A stretch of 35,756 nucleotides of DNA from Gammaproteobacteria bacterium. Its GTDB lineage: Bacteria; Pseudomonadota; Gammaproteobacteria; S012-40. The position numbers and the translations under genes were made by a program. Shown here in pieces: positions 5,981 to 16,125 of this stretch (within the stretch, counting starts at the first letter, position 1; each line of letters starts with the position of its first letter). The stretch spans positions 1 through 35,756 of the forward strand of contig JAOUHV010000031.1 in NCBI GenBank assembly GCA_029884425.1. Direction: 5' to 3'. Below the pieces are notes generated by a model. That model did not search any database. It saw only the letters and a program-made list of their open reading frames with translations, and was not told where the DNA came from.

Positions 5981-8900
5981 TCAGATAATCCCCAACCCTT
6001 GAGCAGTCCCCTGCAACTCGGCCCATACATCAGGATCAACCTTGTCTTCAGGGAGCCTTTGAATCACTTTATCAAACCCGTAGTAAACGTATTTAGGGCT
6101 GCCTGTCTTCATCAATAATACAAGGAGTTTCGCGACGTCATTTGGATAGCGCTCATCTAAATTTTCCTTCATCAAATCGTGTCCAACTGACAGGTGTTCA
6201 AAAGGGGACAACGGCAATTTTCCAGCAATACGCACTGCTTCGGGGAAAATCGCTTTCAGCCGTAATGGCCACTCCAGCATCACGTTGACTTCGCCACTCG
6301 TTAGCGCTTTCGGTATACCGTGGATACGACCCTCCCAGTAGCTTTTCAACCACTTTCCCCACAGTTCTGCTTGCTGTTCTTCGTTCAACCCTCTAAGTAA
6401 ATGGCCGACATGTCGGGCAAAGTTTCGCCAGTCTTCCTCTTCGCCCCCCTTATAGAAGGCTGGAATAGCCTCTTTCAGCGGATCGTCCAAGTAAAAAATA
6501 ACCAGTACAGCGAAAAACTCTGCAAAGCGATCTCTGTAGCTAGCGAGTTCAGTATTGAGACAAGCTGCAGCCTTAAGGAAGAGCGGATGAAGAACATCGA
6601 ATACCCTTTGGTTCAGACGGCCCCAACTCAGAAAACCATCCCAACTCTGCTGCATCCGCAAAGAATTGTTGTCTCTATCAAAACAAGGCAATAACTCTCT
6701 TTCCGTCCACGCATGATCAATCGACAGAAAGTATGAAAACTGACTTGCTATAACTGTTAGGGCGACTCCACTTGCTGGAGTATGCTCGTGAAGGACCCGT
6801 TCTAAAATCTTCGAGTATTGATCAGGTAATGATTCCGGCTTCTCCTTCTGGGCTTTCCACCATAGGCTAAGCCCGTGCACCCAAAATTCGGCCAAAATGC
6901 CGGCAGGGCTATTGATCGCGAAAAGTAACCAATCATCTTTTTCCTCGGGATATTCCTCAACACTCACATGAGGCCAGAGCAACATTGCGACTTCGTGTGC
7001 TTGGTTCAAATAACCCACAGCATTCAGCTTTCCGTCACCTTCGACCAACGCATATAAACATCGGGAAATATCGTAAGAGAAGCGAGGAAAAAGCCTTTCA
7101 TCGGCCAGCCAATGCAACGAATCTGCGCGATAATCTTGATTGTCAGGCCAATCTTTCCATGCATCAATCAAAGCCCCCCACAGATCAGACTGCCATTCAT
7201 CTTTATCAGCAAGCTCTTTTGCTAGAGAAGTACCCCATGGTGGGTTGTTTTTCACCGCTTCAGACAGCGTCTGACACATACCTCTTCTGTCTGGGCCTCG
7301 AAACTCATTCCCCTTAAAAGAAAGTAATTGTTCAAACCATTCAGACGCAGAACGCGCAAGGAGTTCATTTACTGACCACGGACTGACTGGACCAACCCAT
7401 TCTCCACCTGATTTCCAATACGTAAAATCCTGATGCTCACTAGGTTGCAGATCAGGAAATTTTTCAGCAAGAGCGTTTAACTCATTTTCTAGAAGCTCGC
7501 ATTCTGGGTCGGCTTTTCGAAGCCAATCAAGCCAATTGAACTTCACATACGCAGCCCGTTCTTCTAGGGCCCCTGTTTCAGGATTGGGCCATTCATATGC
7601 TAGAACTTCTTTGACAAGGCGCCCACGGGAATCTGCATCGAGTTTCGGGTAAATCAATCCCATCAACCGGAATATTTCATGGTGTGATGGCACTTCATGA
7701 AGATTCATTTCATTCAGAAAAATATCTAGTTTTGCCTCAGCATCGATATCTCCTCTTTCTGCAAGAAAGTGAACGCAAAGCCTACGAAATAAAGGAACCT
7801 CTGAATTACAGTGTTTCAGGAAAAAGCTGTGCGCGTAGAGAAGTTTCGTTTCTCCCAAGCTTTCCAAACAGTCACGAGCTACATTGATCAACACATCTTC
7901 AGCATCTTGAATGCGGTCTTGCTCATGAGGCTCAATAGCTGACCTTCCATAAGACATGCGATCCCAGTTCTCATCAGACTTCCCCCATAGCCACAAAATG
8001 CGATGAATCCGTTCGATCTGATAAACAGACTTGTCAAGCAACGAAATAGCAACTTCATGGAGAATGGGTTTGAGATGTTTTTCGTAGAACTCATTTAAGC
8101 ACCAATGATCCCCATTTATTTTGTACTCAATATCAAGCTTTAACGTCTCATTGCTGATTTCTTCATCCTCATGCCAGTTGAACTCCTTTTTTACCTTTAA
8201 CCGACATTCAACAAGTTTGATAAACAATTCGATTAGGCACTTAGAATTGCCCGCTTCAGAACAGCGTTCCCCCAATAGACCAATTACGAAATCATCCGAA
8301 ACAGTCGGATAGGCAGACAAGAGCACTGAAACCCATTTAGCTAGAGTTTCGGGAGAAAAATGATCAGACGATTGCTTATCCATCCCAATCTCTTGACCCA
8401 AAATCCACCAAAAGTAGTTATTGACCTTCAGGCCGTGATTGGCAATAACTAGTATCAACTCATTAGGAAACTGGTACGCATAATTTTTTGCCAGCCAGTT
8501 TGCCAATACTTGGTCTCTCTCATTGAGTTTGCCGTCAAGGAATAGGTTATCCAGCACTCCCCGGCTATCTAGCCAACTCAACCAGTCCTTATCGGATGCA
8601 GTGTTAGTGAAAAATCGAACTTTCTTTTCGTCAGACAATGCATCGAGAATTTGGTGTTCACTCTCCTCATCTTGCGGAGGCTTTACAGCTGCTAACCCAG
8701 TTAACTCGCGTTTCCAATCCAGCATTGTCCGAGATAAATAGTTAGCCAGCTGTTCAATGCCGCTACAGAGCACTGTATAATCGCGTTTGCCGGGTTTTGG
8801 GAACGAAATAGGCTCAATGCCACGTGCCAGCCACTCTCCCTGTTCAACATCCTCACCGATTAGCGTAAATCGCTGGCCGACAGTGCTTTCAGGTAGGGCG

Positions 8901-9520
8901 CGCGAAAGATATTCTAAAACAATATCTTCATGGCTGTAGCCGACGAACAAGACCGTGTAGGTGCGAAAAAGGTCTACAAGAAATCGTCGTGCCCATCCTT
9001 CGGTCAAGTAACCTCGCCCAAAGTCCGCATCTGTGACCACCATTCCCCTAATATGGTCCAGATGTCCATGCACATGGACGATTCCGGCAAAATCGGATCC
9101 CAATGGCAAGGCAGGTGATCGGTATATATCTGGTAAGTTGCCAAATTGAGCCATCGCCGCCTCTTCGAACAACGAATCAAAATTCGTTGTAACGATACGT
9201 ACCAAATCGTGTTTCGAGAACAAACGCACTAGATTGGTGTGGAGAGGAGCAAAATGACCAGAAGGAAGCGTCAGTGAATTAGATACGCGCTCATGGACGG
9301 CAACACCGCTTCTTAACAAACGACCCAGAAACCTATCGGTAGGCTCGTTTTCGTTCCTTTCTTCGCCGCTTCCTGCGGCAACTATTTTGGCAAGTCGGTT
9401 GAAATCTGGGAGATTTGCTGGCTCCCCCATTGATACGCCCGCACCAGCAAAGACAACACATTTACCAGCACGTAAACTCGCTATCAGCTCATCAGGAAAG
9501 TTGATCGAATTGAACTGCAT
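5981..9520 (-). CDS. SIR2-domain anti-phage defence-type protein, 1179 aa
   Basis: The N-terminal about 270 residues form a SIR2/sirtuin-like Rossmann domain: GAGVS at 26-30, TTNFD at 111-115, catalytic-type HG at 151-152 and GYSHED at 194-199. These are the positions used for NAD binding and hydrolysis in defence sirtuins (DSR1/DSR2, ThsA). The remaining about 900 residues are a long helical, Trp- and Leu-rich region without recognised motifs, as expected of a sensor/scaffold part; it may match DUF4020, but this was not searched. The likely role is phage-triggered NAD+ depletion and abortive infection (inference). ATG at 9520 has an AGGAA ribosome site. The gene is more A+T-rich than its neighbours, sits beside an IS256 remnant and lies downstream of a Fic gene on the same strand, all suggesting horizontal transfer. 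Confidence 0.8.
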   Translation of the reverse strand: MQFNSINFPDELIASLRAGKCVVFAGAGVSMGEPANLPDFNRLAKIVAAGSGEERNENEPTDRFLGRLLRSGVAVHERVSNSLTLPSGHFAPLHTNLVRLFSKHDLVRIVTTNFDSLFEEAAMAQFGNLPDIYRSPALPLGSDFAGIVHVHGHLDHIRGMVVTDADFGRGYLTEGWARRFLVDLFRTYTVLFVGYSHEDIVLEYLSRALPESTVGQRFTLIGEDVEQGEWLARGIEPISFPKPGKRDYTVLCSGIEQLANYLSRTMLDWKRELTGLAAVKPPQDEESEHQILDALSDEKKVRFFTNTASDKDWLSWLDSRGVLDNLFLDGKLNERDQVLANWLAKNYAYQFPNELILVIANHGLKVNNYFWWILGQEIGMDKQSSDHFSPETLAKWVSVLLSAYPTVSDDFVIGLLGERCSEAGNSKCLIELFIKLVECRLKVKKEFNWHEDEEISNETLKLDIEYKINGDHWCLNEFYEKHLKPILHEVAISLLDKSVYQIERIHRILWLWGKSDENWDRMSYGRSAIEPHEQDRIQDAEDVLINVARDCLESLGETKLLYAHSFFLKHCNSEVPLFRRLCVHFLAERGDIDAEAKLDIFLNEMNLHEVPSHHEIFRLMGLIYPKLDADSRGRLVKEVLAYEWPNPETGALEERAAYVKFNWLDWLRKADPECELLENELNALAEKFPDLQPSEHQDFTYWKSGGEWVGPVSPWSVNELLARSASEWFEQLLSFKGNEFRGPDRRGMCQTLSEAVKNNPPWGTSLAKELADKDEWQSDLWGALIDAWKDWPDNQDYRADSLHWLADERLFPRFSYDISRCLYALVEGDGKLNAVGYLNQAHEVAMLLWPHVSVEEYPEEKDDWLLFAINSPAGILAEFWVHGLSLWWKAQKEKPESLPDQYSKILERVLHEHTPASGVALTVIASQFSYFLSIDHAWTERELLPCFDRDNNSLRMQQSWDGFLSWGRLNQRVFDVLHPLFLKAAACLNTELASYRDRFAEFFAVLVIFYLDDPLKEAIPAFYKGGEEEDWRNFARHVGHLLRGLNEEQQAELWGKWLKSYWEGRIHGIPKALTSGEVNVMLEWPLRLKAIFPEAVRIAGKLPLSPFEHLSVGHDLMKENLDERYPNDVAKLLVLLMKTGSPKYVYYGFDKVIQRLPEDKVDPDVWAELQGTAQGLGII

Positions 9521-9570: not shown

Positions 9571-9717
9571 CTATACGCAACTTGAATTTTGATCCTGTGT
9601 TAGCCGAGAGTGCCAATTTGCATTAATCAATTCAACTAATTCTAAGGCGGCTCCCACGACATATCTGCCGTTGGAAGTGGACGCTCTGAAGGACGGCACC
9701 GGATCGCCCTCAGCCAT
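9571..9717 (-). CDS. Small ORF of 48 codons between fic and the SIR2 gene, unrecognised
   Basis: An ATG at 9717 overlaps the end of the Fic frame by 8 bp (GATGGCTGA contains both the start and the Fic stop). It opens an uninterrupted 48-residue frame beginning MAEGDPVPSF and containing YVVGAALELVELIN. It stops at 9571, about 50 bp before the SIR2 start. The overlap suggests translational coupling, and the composition looks protein-like, with an amphipathic helix. No family is recognised. It could be a genuine small partner protein, the 3' remnant of a lost gene, or chance. Confidence 0.35.
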   Translation of the reverse strand: MAEGDPVPSFRASTSNGRYVVGAALELVELINANWHSRLTQDQNSSCV

Positions 9718-10873
9718 CTACATCAACACACCCAGGCCACAACTGATTTTTATCATCCAGTCTCACGACACCTAACTCACGCAACTTTATTAAATCACGT
9801 TGCTTGGTTTTATCCGTCAGCTTCACATACAGACCCAGATACCAGGGAGACTTTCTTAAATCGGCAAGTAATACTGGTTTGCCCGATGCCATGATTTGGC
9901 TGACGATGGCATACTGTCTGGGATTGATTATTTTTTCATCGCTCAAGCGCTTTACTTCATTCTCAAACAGAATCAACCCAATGAGTGCATTTACCCGGTC
10001 GTGCAGGCCGTTGATGCTGGCCAGCATACCTTCCAGGAAAAAGGCAACGAAGTCTGTATTTGGCGCCTCAGCCTTTTTCTCGGTCTGCTTTCGGGTGGTA
10101 TTGAACAGTGTGAAATAAGCGTGAATGTGTTCAAAGTAATAACGTGCCTGGGCAAAAGGGGCGTACTTGTAGCCTTCTGCCTGAAGCAGGGTTGCCTCTA
10201 ACACCCGGCCCACACGACCATTGCCATCCCAGAAGGGATGAATCAGCTCGTAATAAAGATGTACCAGCGGTGCCCGAATTAAAACTGGCACCCCCTGCGC
10301 TGCCAATTGTTGGTGCCACTCGATAAGAGCATCCAGCAGTCGCTCAACGTCTTTTCCATACTGAGGGGGCTTATAGACACCGCCATGCTCCTGATTCCCT
10401 ACCCGGGTAACTACATCCTTGGGATTATCTCTAAGCACTCCTGGCCGGTTGTGCTGATCGGGAATCTGGTCAGTGACTGCGGCGTGGATTCTCTGAATAA
10501 ACCCCACATTTAGCTGCCAACCAGATTCGGCGGCAGCCTGCTGGGCCAGTTCATAGGCACTTTTGAGATTGATGGCGCGACGCTGTTCAACGTCCTGCAC
10601 CTGGGCTGGCATGAGGTCCAGCGCTTCTTCAGTCTCCTCGACAGAAAGAGTGCCGCCCTCAATGGAGTTGGTGCCAAAGATACTGCTGACGACAACCTCT
10701 TTTTCCAGTCGATTGGCCACCTGGGACAAAGGCGAGCTTTTAAAGCGCTTATGGGCATCATTCACGCGCAGCAACAGGCTTTCCAACGCAGCCATATCCA
10801 CGCCAACCTGGAAGACAAATGGGCCGAAACGATCGGTTTCCACCCTCATTTGGGGACTATTATCCTCTGGCAC
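9710..10873 (-). CDS. Fic-domain protein (probable AMP-transferase) with N-terminal inhibitory motif and C-terminal winged helix
   Basis: The canonical Fic loop HPFWDGNGR begins at His212 (numbering from the GTG at 10873). The motif TNSIEG at 68-73 fits the [S/T]xxxE[G/N] inhibitory helix of class II Fic proteins, with Glu72 as the inhibitory residue. The C-terminal 70 residues (YAIVSQIMASGKPVLLADL...) look like a winged helix, often seen in this subfamily. Fic enzymes usually transfer AMP from ATP to Ser/Thr/Tyr hydroxyls of target proteins; the target here is unknown. The start is uncertain: GTG at 10873 or ATG at 10849, neither with a strong ribosome site. A palindrome lies about 75 bp upstream. 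It probably shares mRNA with the small ORF and perhaps the SIR2 gene. Confidence 0.88.
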   Translation of the reverse strand: MPEDNSPQMRVETDRFGPFVFQVGVDMAALESLLLRVNDAHKRFKSSPLSQVANRLEKEVVVSSIFGTNSIEGGTLSVEETEEALDLMPAQVQDVEQRRAINLKSAYELAQQAAAESGWQLNVGFIQRIHAAVTDQIPDQHNRPGVLRDNPKDVVTRVGNQEHGGVYKPPQYGKDVERLLDALIEWHQQLAAQGVPVLIRAPLVHLYYELIHPFWDGNGRVGRVLEATLLQAEGYKYAPFAQARYYFEHIHAYFTLFNTTRKQTEKKAEAPNTDFVAFFLEGMLASINGLHDRVNALIGLILFENEVKRLSDEKIINPRQYAIVSQIMASGKPVLLADLRKSPWYLGLYVKLTDKTKQRDLIKLRELGVVRLDDKNQLWPGCVDVDG

Positions 10874-11811: not shown

Positions 11812-11839
11812 AAAAAGCCTGGCTCAGTCCAGGCTTTTT
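11812..11839 (+). terminator. Rho-independent terminator after the DUF2058 gene
   Basis: An 11-bp perfect stem (AAAAAGCCTGG / CCAGGCTTTTT) with a 6-base loop ends in a T-run, 29 bp after the stop codon. Symmetric A and T runs make it potentially bidirectional. Confidence 0.85.
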
Positions 11840-11903
11840 GCGTTGTGACGCCATTCAAAATTTTCAACAAATTTCCTCAAGAACATACTGGACAGGACGT
11901 TAT

Positions 11904-11952
11904 TTTGGGATATTATTCCCAAATGAGAGATTCATTGGGATTAATTTCCCAA
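11904..11952 (+). promoter_or_regulatory. Two tandem TTGGGA-N6-TCCCAA palindromes, candidate operator
   Basis: The first copy (11904-11923) has arms TTTGGGA/TCCCAAA; the second (11935-11952) has arms TTGGGA/TCCCAA. Both have 6-base A/T-only spacers. Their centres lie exactly 30 bp apart, close to three helical turns, so two dimers would bind on the same face. They sit 70-118 bp before the first DUF5666 start. No known regulator was matched. Confidence 0.6.
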
Positions 11953-12021: not shown

Positions 12022-13485
12022 ATGAAAAACCGTACTTTCAACTACAGCATGACCGCCCTTTCCGTTGCCCTAGCCCTGGGCCTGACCGGCTGCCTTGGCG
12101 GCTCCGACGACAAACCACTGGATACCACCCTGCCCACCCCCAAAGTGACACAAGGCGTGATCACTGGCTTTGGTAGTGTGTTCGTCAATGGCGTGGAGTA
12201 TGAAACCGATGTTGCCTCTATCAACGTAGATGGTCTTGCCGGTAACGAAACCCAGCTGAAACTGGGCATGGTGGTCAAACTCAAAGGCTCGGTCAATGCC
12301 GATGGCTCCACCGGCAACGCCCTGAGCGTAGATTTTGCCGATAACCTGGAAGGCACGGTAGCTGCCAACAACATCGGCATCGACAACACGCTAACCGTCA
12401 TGGGTCAAACCGTCACCATTACCGCAGACACCGTGTTTGAAAGCTCAGTTGCAGGTCAACTCTCCCCCGCTGACATCGCAGCCGGCAACATTGTTGAAAT
12501 CAGCGGTTTCACCAGCGGCGACGGCAATATTTTCGCCACTCGCGTGGAAGTGAAAAAACAGGCCCATGTACAGGGTGATGAAATCCAGTTGAAGGGGCTG
12601 ATCAGCATGCTAGACAGCACTGCAAAAACCTTCAAATTGGGCGGAATGACCATCGACTATAACCAAGCTGCAGAAGTTCCTGCTGTAATCGCGAACGGTT
12701 TGTACGTCGAAGCCAAAACCACTTCCGCACCTGCCGGCAACACCTTCGTCGCCAGCAAAATCGAAGTGGAAGGCAATGGCGAACTGGGTGTCGAAGTCGC
12801 TGAAAATGAAGACATCGAATTGTCCGGTATGATTACCAGTGTCGGCACTCCTTCTCTCGATGGCCTGAGCGTTGATTTCACCATCAATGGTCAGTTGGCC
12901 AAACTGGTGGTTGAAGAAGCCGGCAAAATGGCGGAAGAATCAGCCAAACTGGTAGTAGGCGCTAAAGCCCGCATCGAAGGCAAGGGCGACGCCACTGGCG
13001 TGCTGATCGTCAACGAAATTGACTCCGGTATGGGCGACAGCGATCTGGAAATCAAAGGCTTTGTCGACAGCGTTGACGTTGCCAACAAGTCCGTCACCAT
13101 CCTGGGACAAACCATTTATCTCACCAATAACACCATGGTGAAAGATGATCTGGATGTGGGCGCACAACGCTACTTTGGCGTGGATGATTTAGTGAATGGT
13201 GACTGGATTGAAGTGAAGCTGGCCATTGACGCAGCCACAGGAAATCTGGTGGCACTCAATATGAAACGCGATGACGCCAGCGGCAACACGGAAGAGCTGA
13301 AAGGCAAAATCGTCGACAATACCACCACGCTAGGCCACATGATCATCGGTGATGCCTCTCTGGCCCCTACGATGAATTTGGATGTGTTGTCTAATGCTAC
13401 CGGCTTTGCTGCCGGGGACAAGGTAGTCATTACCGTCACCGAAAACGGCGGTGTACTGACTGCAACTAATGTTATCCTAGACTAA
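12022..13485 (+). CDS. DUF5666-domain lipoprotein (first copy)
   Basis: A 487-residue protein starting at ATG 12022 with AGGAG seven bases upstream. In-frame sequence back to 11845 would run across the operators and lacks a signal peptide at its start. A lipoprotein signal peptide ends with lipobox LTGC (Cys24), and the mature N-terminus is GGSDDKP. The rest is a series of about 70-residue beta-rich DUF5666 repeats, with GFGSVFVNGVEYET, KLGMVVKLKGSV, VEISGF and VEVKKQA recurring with variation. Residue 2 of the mature form is Leu, consistent with outer-membrane sorting by Lol. Function is unknown; the repeats resemble small OB-like barrels. It is a paralogue of the second copy downstream. Confidence 0.85.
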   Translation: MKNRTFNYSMTALSVALALGLTGCLGGSDDKPLDTTLPTPKVTQGVITGFGSVFVNGVEYETDVASINVDGLAGNETQLKLGMVVKLKGSVNADGSTGNALSVDFADNLEGTVAANNIGIDNTLTVMGQTVTITADTVFESSVAGQLSPADIAAGNIVEISGFTSGDGNIFATRVEVKKQAHVQGDEIQLKGLISMLDSTAKTFKLGGMTIDYNQAAEVPAVIANGLYVEAKTTSAPAGNTFVASKIEVEGNGELGVEVAENEDIELSGMITSVGTPSLDGLSVDFTINGQLAKLVVEEAGKMAEESAKLVVGAKARIEGKGDATGVLIVNEIDSGMGDSDLEIKGFVDSVDVANKSVTILGQTIYLTNNTMVKDDLDVGAQRYFGVDDLVNGDWIEVKLAIDAATGNLVALNMKRDDASGNTEELKGKIVDNTTTLGHMIIGDASLAPTMNLDVLSNATGFAAGDKVVITVTENGGVLTATNVILD

Positions 13486-13531: not shown

Positions 13532-14353
13532 ATGAGCGACGATAAACAAAAAATTCTTCACTCCGCCCTGGCAAAGCTGCTGACCCCACTGGTTCGGCTG
13601 ATGCTTCGCAACGGCGTGACACACGGCGTGTTTGAAGAAATCGCACGCAAAATCTACGTGGATGTGGCGGAAAAAGATTTTTCGCTGGACGATAAAAAGC
13701 AAACCACGACCCGTATTTCCACCATCACCGGTTTGAATCGCAAAGAAGTGGCCCGTCTGCAACAAATGGACGCCAGCAATGCTGATTACTCACTGAAAGA
13801 ACAACACCGCGTTGCCCGCGTTATCTTCGGCTGGATCAACAATCCCAGCTATCTGCAACTGGACGGTGATCCCAAACCCCTGAGCTTCGACAAAGACGAA
13901 CTCAACTTTTCTACCCTGGTCAAACAATACAGCGGCGACATGACACCGCGCGCAATCTTTGATGAACTGAATGCAAAAGGCGTCATCCAGATCGACGATG
14001 ACGGCCTGATCCACCTGCTGCAACGCGCCTACATTCCCACCACCAGCGAAGTCGACAAACTGAAAATTCTGGGGGTGGATGTCAACGGCCTGATCAGCAC
14101 CATTGACCGCAACATTTACCAATCCGAGAAAGAGCCGTTCTTCCAACGCAAGGTCTACTACGACAACCTGCCTGAAGAAGCCCTGCCGCTGATCAAAAAA
14201 TTGATCGCCAGTCGCAGCCAGGCGCTGATGGAAGAAGTTAACCGATTAATGGCCGAATATGACCGCGACGCCAACCCCAACAGCCAGGGGACAGGTCGCA
14301 AGGCCGCCGGCCTTGGTATTTTTTACTTTGAAGATGACTCCCAGGAGAAATAG
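13532..14353 (+). CDS. DUF6502 family protein, probable cytoplasmic regulator
   Basis: A 273-residue protein with no signal peptide or membrane segment. The N-terminal about 75 residues (LAKLLTPLVRLMLRNGVTHGVFEEIARKIYVDVA...) contain RISTITGLNRKEVARLQ, a plausible helix-turn-helix. The middle part, FSTLVKQYSGDMTPRAIFDELNAKGVIQIDDDG, resembles a second winged-helix-like unit. DUF6502 proteins are known mainly from their proximity to DUF5666 genes, as here. A DNA-binding role, possibly at the tandem palindromes upstream, is inference. No clear Shine-Dalgarno precedes ATG 13532. The stop is 3 bp before the second DUF5666 gene, so the two are co-transcribed. Confidence 0.75.
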   Translation: MSDDKQKILHSALAKLLTPLVRLMLRNGVTHGVFEEIARKIYVDVAEKDFSLDDKKQTTTRISTITGLNRKEVARLQQMDASNADYSLKEQHRVARVIFGWINNPSYLQLDGDPKPLSFDKDELNFSTLVKQYSGDMTPRAIFDELNAKGVIQIDDDGLIHLLQRAYIPTTSEVDKLKILGVDVNGLISTIDRNIYQSEKEPFFQRKVYYDNLPEEALPLIKKLIASRSQALMEEVNRLMAEYDRDANPNSQGTGRKAAGLGIFYFEDDSQEK

Positions 14354-14356
14354 ACC

Positions 14357-15751
14357 ATGAACGCCTTACGCCTTCTCCCCCTTCCCCTGTTGTTGGCCGC
14401 GTTGTTAAGCGGTTGCGCCGGCGGTGGCGAAACCGGCACCGGTCTGACCCCAACGACCGAGCCTGTCGTTTCCCTGGGCGCCATCACCGGTTTTGGCAGT
14501 GTTTATGTCAACGGTGTGCATTTCCAAACCACCGGTAGCAGCGTCAGCCTCAATGGTGCCGGCGCCAACGAAACTGAGCTGAAAATCGGCATGGTGGTCA
14601 AAGTACGCGGCAAGATTGATCCCGACGATCCATTAACCGGCGTTGCCAGCGCGGTTGAATATGACAACGAACTCAAAGGCGTAGTAACCGCTACCACCCT
14701 GGATCTCAACAACGTCGGTACCATTACCGTCATGGGACAAGTGGTCACCATCGATAATCAAACCCAAATCGAAGGCGCGCTTTCAATCGCCATCAACAAC
14801 GTAGTCGAGGTCAGTGGCTACGCCGATGGTCTGGGCAACATTCACGCGACTTTGGTTGAGGTTAAGAGTGCCAGCTATACCGCCGGCGAAGAAATTGAAC
14901 TGAAAGGTACCGTGAGTTTGCTAAGTCCAACCGCTAAAACTTTTAGTATCGGATCGCAGACAATCAGTTATGGCGGCATTGGCAACGTTACACTGCAAGA
15001 TGGGGCCTTGGTCGAGGTTAAGTCCACCAGTGGCTTTAGCGGCGGCGTGCTGATCGCCAATCGCATTGAAGTGAAAAGTGCCAGTGGTCGCGAATTTGAA
15101 GGCAAGGATGGCCAGGAACTGGAACTGGAAGGCATCATCAGTGCGGTTAGCGTTTCTCCAGCACCTCCTAGCTTTACCGTAAACGGCTACACCGTGCTGG
15201 TGCAGGACACCACACCGTACACCGTGGGCGCACGCATCGAAGTTAAAGGCAAGTTCGATGGCAATGGCAACCTAGTGCTGGAAAGCGCCGAGCAACACAT
15301 TGAGGCCGATCTGGACATCAATGGCCGTGTCGCGCTCAATTCGTCTATCCCCAGCGCTATCACAGTGTTTGGCAAAGATTTCATCATCAATAACCAAACC
15401 ATCATGAACGACAATCGCGATCAGGGGGGTTACACGCCCGAACATTATTTCGATATCAAAAAACTAGGTAACGATGATCGGGTGGAACTGAGCGCCTACC
15501 AGCAACCCAGCGGTAGCTGGATAGTGACTCGTTTGGATCGCATCAACGACAGCGCTGACCCGCTGCTGATACACGGCATCATCACCGCTACCAACGATCC
15601 GATCACTCCGACCACGCTGACAATCAAAAACAGCTTTGTCATCGACATTTCAACCGTTGCCGCCCAGCTGAGTGGCAAAACCGTGGGCGATGAGATTAAA
15701 GTTGAGATTAACGTCGTCGGCAACAATCTGGTCGCCACCGCGATTCACTAA
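14357..15751 (+). CDS. DUF5666-domain lipoprotein (second copy)
   Basis: A 464-residue protein starting at ATG 14357, with AGGAG inside the end of the DUF6502 gene nine bases upstream. A lipobox LSGC (Cys20) is followed by a Gly/Thr-rich linker. The body aligns by eye with the first copy from its start: GAITGFGSVYVNGVHFQT, ETELKIGMVVKVRG, ITVMGQVVTIDNQT, and repeating EIELKGTVSLLSPTAKTFSIG units. Several DUF5666 repeats cover the whole mature protein. It is probably anchored in the outer membrane. The sequence has diverged, yet the conserved repeat register suggests an old tandem duplication around the DUF6502 gene. Confidence 0.85.
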   Translation: MNALRLLPLPLLLAALLSGCAGGGETGTGLTPTTEPVVSLGAITGFGSVYVNGVHFQTTGSSVSLNGAGANETELKIGMVVKVRGKIDPDDPLTGVASAVEYDNELKGVVTATTLDLNNVGTITVMGQVVTIDNQTQIEGALSIAINNVVEVSGYADGLGNIHATLVEVKSASYTAGEEIELKGTVSLLSPTAKTFSIGSQTISYGGIGNVTLQDGALVEVKSTSGFSGGVLIANRIEVKSASGREFEGKDGQELELEGIISAVSVSPAPPSFTVNGYTVLVQDTTPYTVGARIEVKGKFDGNGNLVLESAEQHIEADLDINGRVALNSSIPSAITVFGKDFIINNQTIMNDNRDQGGYTPEHYFDIKKLGNDDRVELSAYQQPSGSWIVTRLDRINDSADPLLIHGIITATNDPITPTTLTIKNSFVIDISTVAAQLSGKTVGDEIKVEINVVGNNLVATAIH

Positions 15752-15765
15752 CACGGAAAAGACCA

Positions 15766-16125
15766 ATGGCCAAGCAGCGTATCAAACGGGAAATTTTTGT
15801 CAGCGAAGTGGCCGATGAGTTTTTGAAAAAAATCCGCGAGGATGGCGGTGACGACATGGCTTTCGCCGGCATTTTGTTTGAAATGGCGATTCAGATGGTG
15901 CGCACTGGCCACATCCGCTGGAACGCGCACGGTTTTGAGTGCACCACCGACAAGGGCGTGGTTACCATCAACATCGCCCAAGGTAATGCACCCCCTGCCG
16001 ACAAACCAGCGACACCGGTGGCCACCAACAAATCCCCCTCGCCGCTAGCCGATATCGCCAAATCCATGAAAGCCGGTGCCAGCAAGCCTGCAGCACCGGC
16101 AGACAAGAAAAAACTCGACGACTAG
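15766..16125 (+). CDS. Hypothetical protein, 119 aa
   Basis: It starts at ATG 15766, 14 bp after the second DUF5666 gene, with a GGAAAAG ribosome site, so it is the last gene of that operon. The N-terminal 75 residues look folded (EIFVSEVADEFLKKIREDG, FEMAIQMVRTGHIRWNAHGFE). The C-terminal 45 residues are Ala/Pro/Lys-rich and probably disordered. No signal peptide, membrane span or known motif is visible. The stop TAG shares the bases CTAG with the stop of the convergent kdsB gene. Function is not recognised. Confidence 0.7.
   Translation: MAKQRIKREIFVSEVADEFLKKIREDGGDDMAFAGILFEMAIQMVRTGHIRWNAHGFECTTDKGVVTINIAQGNAPPADKPATPVATNKSPSPLADIAKSMKAGASKPAAPADKKKLDD

Follow-up and report, generated by a model that had tools for sequence, protein, structure and literature searches.

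Two palindromes at the predicted promoter of a lipoprotein operon

Which protein reads the two near-identical palindromes ahead of a lipoprotein operon in a Gammaproteobacteria bacterium (contig JAOUHV010000031.1), and what would its binding do? We analyzed the whole stretch of 35,756 nucleotides in which they lie (the window; Table 1), and we consider it likely that a dimer of DUF6502, a protein encoded in that operon, binds both palindromes, O1 and O2, and would thereby repress the operon. The window proteins are clear members of the Pfam families DUF6502 (PF20112) and DUF5666 (PF18914), neither of which has a recorded function; the DUF6502 member scores 254.7 bits against a cut-off of 27 and covers model positions 3-264 of 268. 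In the literature searched, we found no mention of DUF6502 and passing mentions only of DUF5666. For the motif, a strict literature search gave no match, and the matches listed by a looser search all appeared unrelated by title; a buried report is possible.

An earlier note on this DNA had described a tandem pair of TTGGGA-N6-TCCCAA palindromes with common arms and a 6-base spacer, placed 30 bp apart on one face of the DNA. The arms (TTGGGA/TCCCAA) are indeed identical, both sites match the motif exactly, and they lie 30 bp apart from start to start; only the first coordinate was off by one (11905, not 11904). The phasing holds roughly, since a helix of 10.5 bp per turn makes 2.86 turns in 30 bp. 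Most other tandem pairs are spaced by 22-28 bp, and some by 38, 40, 46, 73, and 106 bp, so that the 30-bp spacing is not conserved and a fixed phasing is ruled out as a general feature. Under a Markov-1 model of the window, the exact motif is expected 0.0025 times per window, and none of 400 simulations contained a pair.

The genes between 12022 and 16125 form an apparent operon, with intergenic gaps of approximately 46, 3, and 14 bp, and two exact TGGGA-N6-TCCCA sites precede its first gene, which encodes a DUF5666 lipoprotein. The sole sigma-70-like promoter that we found consists of a TGGACA box and a TATTAT -10 box inside O1, the former in the same register as in the rest of the family. 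The ATG lies about 100 nt downstream, and the operon mRNA is thus predicted not to be leaderless. Both the predicted -10 box inside O1 and the family-wide pattern described below place the operator on the core promoter of the operon that encodes its candidate regulator.

Beside the operon, on the minus strand, the window also encodes a 1179-aa SIR2-type protein (5981-9520) whose resemblance to the anti-phage protein Dsr1 scores far below the NCBIfam cut-off and, adjoining it, a Fic-domain protein (9710-10873) that resembles SoFic. These two genes are a possible defence pair.

Table 1. Coordinates of the operator, promoter and operon features in the window.
Feature	Position	Strand	Basis and remarks
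Probable terminator hairpin AAAAAGCCTGG-CTCAGT-CCAGGCTTTTT	11812..11839		Read from sequence; sets apart the upstream DUF2058 gene
Predicted -35 box TGGACA	11889..11894	+	17 bp 5' of the start of the O1 core; TTGACA is most frequent at this position in other loci
Operator O1, TTGGGA-TATTAT-TCCCAA	11905..11922		Exact motif match; core TGGGA-N6-TCCCA; overlaps predicted -10 box
Predicted -10 box TATTAT, inside O1	11911..11916	+	Sigma-70-like promoter prediction
Operator O2, TTGGGA-TTAATT-TCCCAA	11935..11952		Exact motif match; same core; predicted early transcribed region
DUF5666 lipoprotein gene, operon gene 1	12022..13485	+	PF18914, E 1.9e-33
DUF6502 gene, proposed operator-binding autoregulator	13532..14353	+	PF20112, E 9e-76; AlphaFold model with helix-turn-helix region
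Second DUF5666 lipoprotein gene	14357..15751	+	PF18914, E 2e-33
119-aa ORF, probably last operon gene	15766..16125	+	ORF list; no match to Pfam or NCBIfam profiles

The motif follows DUF6502 across genomes

We compared genomes with and without DUF6502 in a class sample of 323 genomes, about 88-89 of which carry the gene. The exact 12-bp motif was present in 32 of the 89 DUF6502-bearing genomes and in 20 of the 234 others (p = 2.5e-8); it was absent from 57 of the 89, and the spacers in motif-bearing genomes that have no DUF6502 mostly contained G or C. Upstream of DUF6502, the exact core TGGGA-N6-TCCCA was found at 45 of 81 loci within 3 kb and at 33 of 81 within 300 bp, compared to at most 3 (3 kb) and 0 (300 bp) for 19 permuted arms at the same loci and at most 2 for other spacers. 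A prior-free count of palindromes upstream of DUF6502 in the class sample also ranked TGGGA-N6 at the top, with 31 genomes as against 4 for the best unrelated palindrome.

A second, named set of 80 loci, which partly overlaps the 81-locus class set, extends this pattern to other phyla. The exact upstream core was present in Gammaproteobacteria (28/30), Desulfobacterota (10/14), Nitrospirota (24/34), and Planctomycetota (1/1), and a de novo palindrome ranking put TGGGA-N6 first in each of the first three. Phylum labels are the titles of mostly metagenome-assembled records, and single cases such as the one in Planctomycetota may therefore reflect misbinning. The earlier note had taken the palindromes as strong evidence for a specific dimeric regulator of the DUF5666 operon and had named a lack of arm conservation in orthologous promoters as what would refute it; the arms and the 6-bp spacer are kept before orthologous operons across phyla, which strongly supports such a regulator. 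DUF5666-type genes occur in the same stretch as DUF6502 in 123 loci, and apart from DUF5666 no other gene family recurs in most DUF6502 loci. Judged by these comparisons, the TGGGA-N6-TCCCA core is a DUF6502-associated operator.

Operator placement and spacer in the DUF6502 family

When DUF6502 promoters are aligned on the site, they show TTGACA, 17 nucleotides, and then a TATAAT-like hexamer inside the palindrome that ends in the palindrome's invariant T. Of 66 near sites, 43 have an ATG 18-20 nt from the beginning of the core; where the site embeds the -10 box, the ATG usually comes about 7 nt after it. Since the ATG sits where transcription should start, these direct DUF6502 promoters probably yield leaderless mRNA, and with the predicted -10 box under the site, a bound protein must compete with RNA polymerase. 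In several Nitrospira DUF6502 promoters (L204, L205, L207, and L223), a conserved stretch resembling ATTGCTTTTGATGAAAC takes the place of TTGACA ahead of the operator; these perhaps belong to another promoter type.

A divergent DUF6502 clade is recognisable by a histidine where the predicted recognition helix begins (TG[IV]HR), and its de novo motif is (G)TGGGA-N5-TCCCA(C), with a spacer one base shorter. With at most one mismatch allowed, N5 sites were found at 18 of 35 loci of this H clade versus 0 of 152 remaining loci, and N6 sites at 0 of 35 versus 108 of 152. The two paralogues in one genome (G133) each match their own clade, L139 having an N6 site and L261 an N5 site. Outside the H clade, even with one mismatch allowed, 44 of 152 loci lacked a site within 400 bp; some of these carry one further upstream, before a DUF5666 gene. 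The N5/N6 split corresponds to a single change on the DUF6502 tree and thus represents one evolutionary event, not repeated covariation; for the same reason, an independent-contrast test of the spacer switch against the H residue had no statistical power. The Fisher p of 2e-16 for the split treats related sequences as separate counts and so does not add independent evidence. The split supports DUF6502 as the probable reader of the site, not as many independent cases would.

Candidate regulon

In a genome-wide scan, as proposed in the earlier note, the 2.9-Mb host genome contains 5 exact sites, all before genes and all with A+T-rich spacers, and the reversed control pattern gave 0. The three sites outside the window precede an ORF for half of an HDOD domain (C17), a DUF4382-like lipoprotein gene that scores below the Pfam cut-off (C28), and a sohB-type peptidase gene (C42). 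In relatives from the same family, several sites precede DUF5666 or DUF6502 genes. Sites away from DUF6502 precede stand-alone DUF5666 genes (L029, L280, L283, and L286). In three genomes (L038, L284, and L285) the operator lies at the start of genes for PF09826 beta-propeller lipoproteins, and in related genomes (L027, L031, and L033) a single operator is shared by the gene for an FAD/4Fe-4S oxidoreductase and that for a divergent membrane protein for which we found no Pfam match. This set of candidate targets outside DUF6502 would fit an envelope or redox response.

Relatives of the oxidoreductase also occur near DUF6502 in Nitrospira loci. Small HDOD proteins of about 100 aa, with the first part of the HDOD domain only, are encoded directly 3' of an exact operator in the host (L041:4728-5030, on C17 of G000) and in another genome (L035:934-1254, G004). 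Three genomes (G073, G098, and G310; loci L277, L278, and L279) lack a DUF6502 match and carry an exact site whose spacer core is A+T only, possibly by chance; a fourth (G011) also has the site and no DUF6502 match, in an assembly that is only 80% complete.

Fold of DUF6502 and comparison with HetR

AlphaFold predicts for the window DUF6502 (model pLDDT 87.7) a helix-turn-helix at residues ~31-84 that resembles domains of the sigma-region, DeoR, and TetR types, followed by a winged-helix-like part (~85-168). The best solved-structure match to the whole model was HetR, a protein of heterocyst-forming cyanobacteria whose three domains are a helix-turn-helix domain, a flap, and a hood (Foldseek E 5e-4, prob 1.00 for 4j00), and HetR chains (PDB 4j00, 4hri, 3qod, and 4yrv) were also the top rows of a structural aligner, over about 215 residues. 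The VIA aligner gave Z 7.4-7.8 with rmsd ~10-11 for the whole model (Z 7.8, rmsd 10.7 over 217 residues), and HetR again came top with residues 84-273 alone (Z 7.2-7.7, rmsd 10-11; Foldseek E only 0.33), Z values of 7.2-7.8 being in the range that this aligner calls middling. HetR is an auto-regulated master regulator of differentiation that acts as a dimer and reads GGG/CCC half-sites, with the consensus gggN5ccc, through Arg62, Glu71, and Lys73 (PMC4649674). In a hand alignment made by eye, which is not a test, HetR L70-E71-P72-K73-R74-V75 pairs with DUF6502 L68-N69-R70-K71-E72-V73, in which K71 is nearly invariant in DUF6502.

The resemblance to HetR lies in the predicted fold, at middling Z values, and in the GGG/CCC half-sites; sequence similarity is not significant. 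A PDB profile search with DUF6502 gave no HetR chain up to E 10, hhalign gave probability 0.3 and E 0.18 with only two sequences on the HetR side, and in hmmsearch HetR scored against DUF6502 at the level of shuffled controls; a plasmid search for further HetR sequences found none. These tests gave no sequence evidence of kinship, and the HetR link is therefore a lead. The spacing also differs from the HetR operator, being GGG-N8-CCC in the main DUF6502 clade and GGG-N7-CCC in the H clade versus GGG-N5-CCC. We tentatively entertain the possibility that the DUF6502 proteins are widespread transcription factors and remote homologues of HetR, with HetR as one branch of older autoregulators in Gammaproteobacteria, Desulfobacterota, Nitrospirota, and others, and with GGG-Nx-CCC spacings of 8, 7, and 5 by branch.

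Proposed mechanism and alternatives

The motif, its conservation, its link to the DUF6502 clades, and its placement on promoters were obtained by computation, and on this sequence evidence DUF6502 is the best candidate for the operator binder. Direct binding, dimerisation, repression, and release by a signal are steps that we infer. A DUF6502 dimer would read two GGGA/TCCC half-sites with its N-terminal helix-turn-helix. As O1 covers the predicted -10 box of the operon and O2 lies just 3' of the predicted start site, binding would block RNA polymerase, and DUF6502 would repress its own operon, including both flanking DUF5666 lipoprotein genes, until some signal releases it from the operator. 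Further targets in the host genome would probably include the DUF4382-like lipoprotein gene, the sohB-type protease gene, and the small HDOD gene.

The sites could instead be bound by another dimeric regulator, for example of the CRP/FNR type, with DUF6502 merely one of its targets. CRP-type sites have the same arm-N6-arm layout (TTGTGA-N6-TCACAA), CRP/FNR operators are similar in length and 6-bp spacer, and TGTGA-N6 was weakly present in our palindrome count (3 genomes). Their core, however, is GTGA and not the DUF6502-linked GGGA; the motif tracks DUF6502 across phyla, its spacer is 6 or 5 bases long depending on the DUF6502 clade it accompanies, a difference also seen between two paralogues in a single genome, and only DUF5666 otherwise recurs in most loci, all of which makes such a regulator quite improbable. 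The Pfam domains listed for DUF6502 members, a result that concerns DUF6502 only and not other host proteins, include no cNMP-binding or Crp-type helix-turn-helix domain. A rather unlikely variant is that DUF6502 binds but activates, or activates at some promoters and represses at others; HetR, the best fold match, is after all described as an auto-regulated master regulator (PMC4649674). Against this, DUF6502's own promoters combine a consensus -35 box with a near-consensus -10 box under the site, so that no activator would be needed and a bound protein would block.

We give very little credence to the palindromes acting as RNA hairpins, in an attenuator or terminator. Together with the GAATTTTTCT that follows it, O2 scores as terminator-like, but 0.6 hits of this kind are expected by chance in the scan and we judged this one to be a chance hit; moreover, the predicted start lies 3' of O1, no T-run follows the conserved sites, and the arms are kept as sequence. 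Genomes that lack DUF6502 do hold a few exact matches, whose spacers mostly contain G or C, and chance or base composition may account for these; but with 0.0025 simulated hits per window, controls near 0, and conservation across phyla, it is a negligible explanation for the operator. Repression by DUF6502 would thus resemble classical autorepression, in which a palindromic operator overlaps the -10 box of the gene for the repressor itself. The logic would be the same, with most direct promoters here predicted to give a leaderless start immediately 3' of the operator; unlike classical autorepressors, the DUF6502 family is not described as a regulator in the literature searched.

Implications

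DUF6502 thereby gains a testable predicted function, that of a DNA-binding autoregulator with a defined operator of 16-18 bp. The family occurs in other phyla besides the sampled class, which predicts a widespread and unstudied family of gene switches. Its regulon should be readable from sequence alone via the operator, and the operator link offers a handle on the DUF5666 lipoproteins, whose function is likewise uncharacterised. If the link to HetR were confirmed, the heterocyst regulator would gain relatives outside cyanobacteria.
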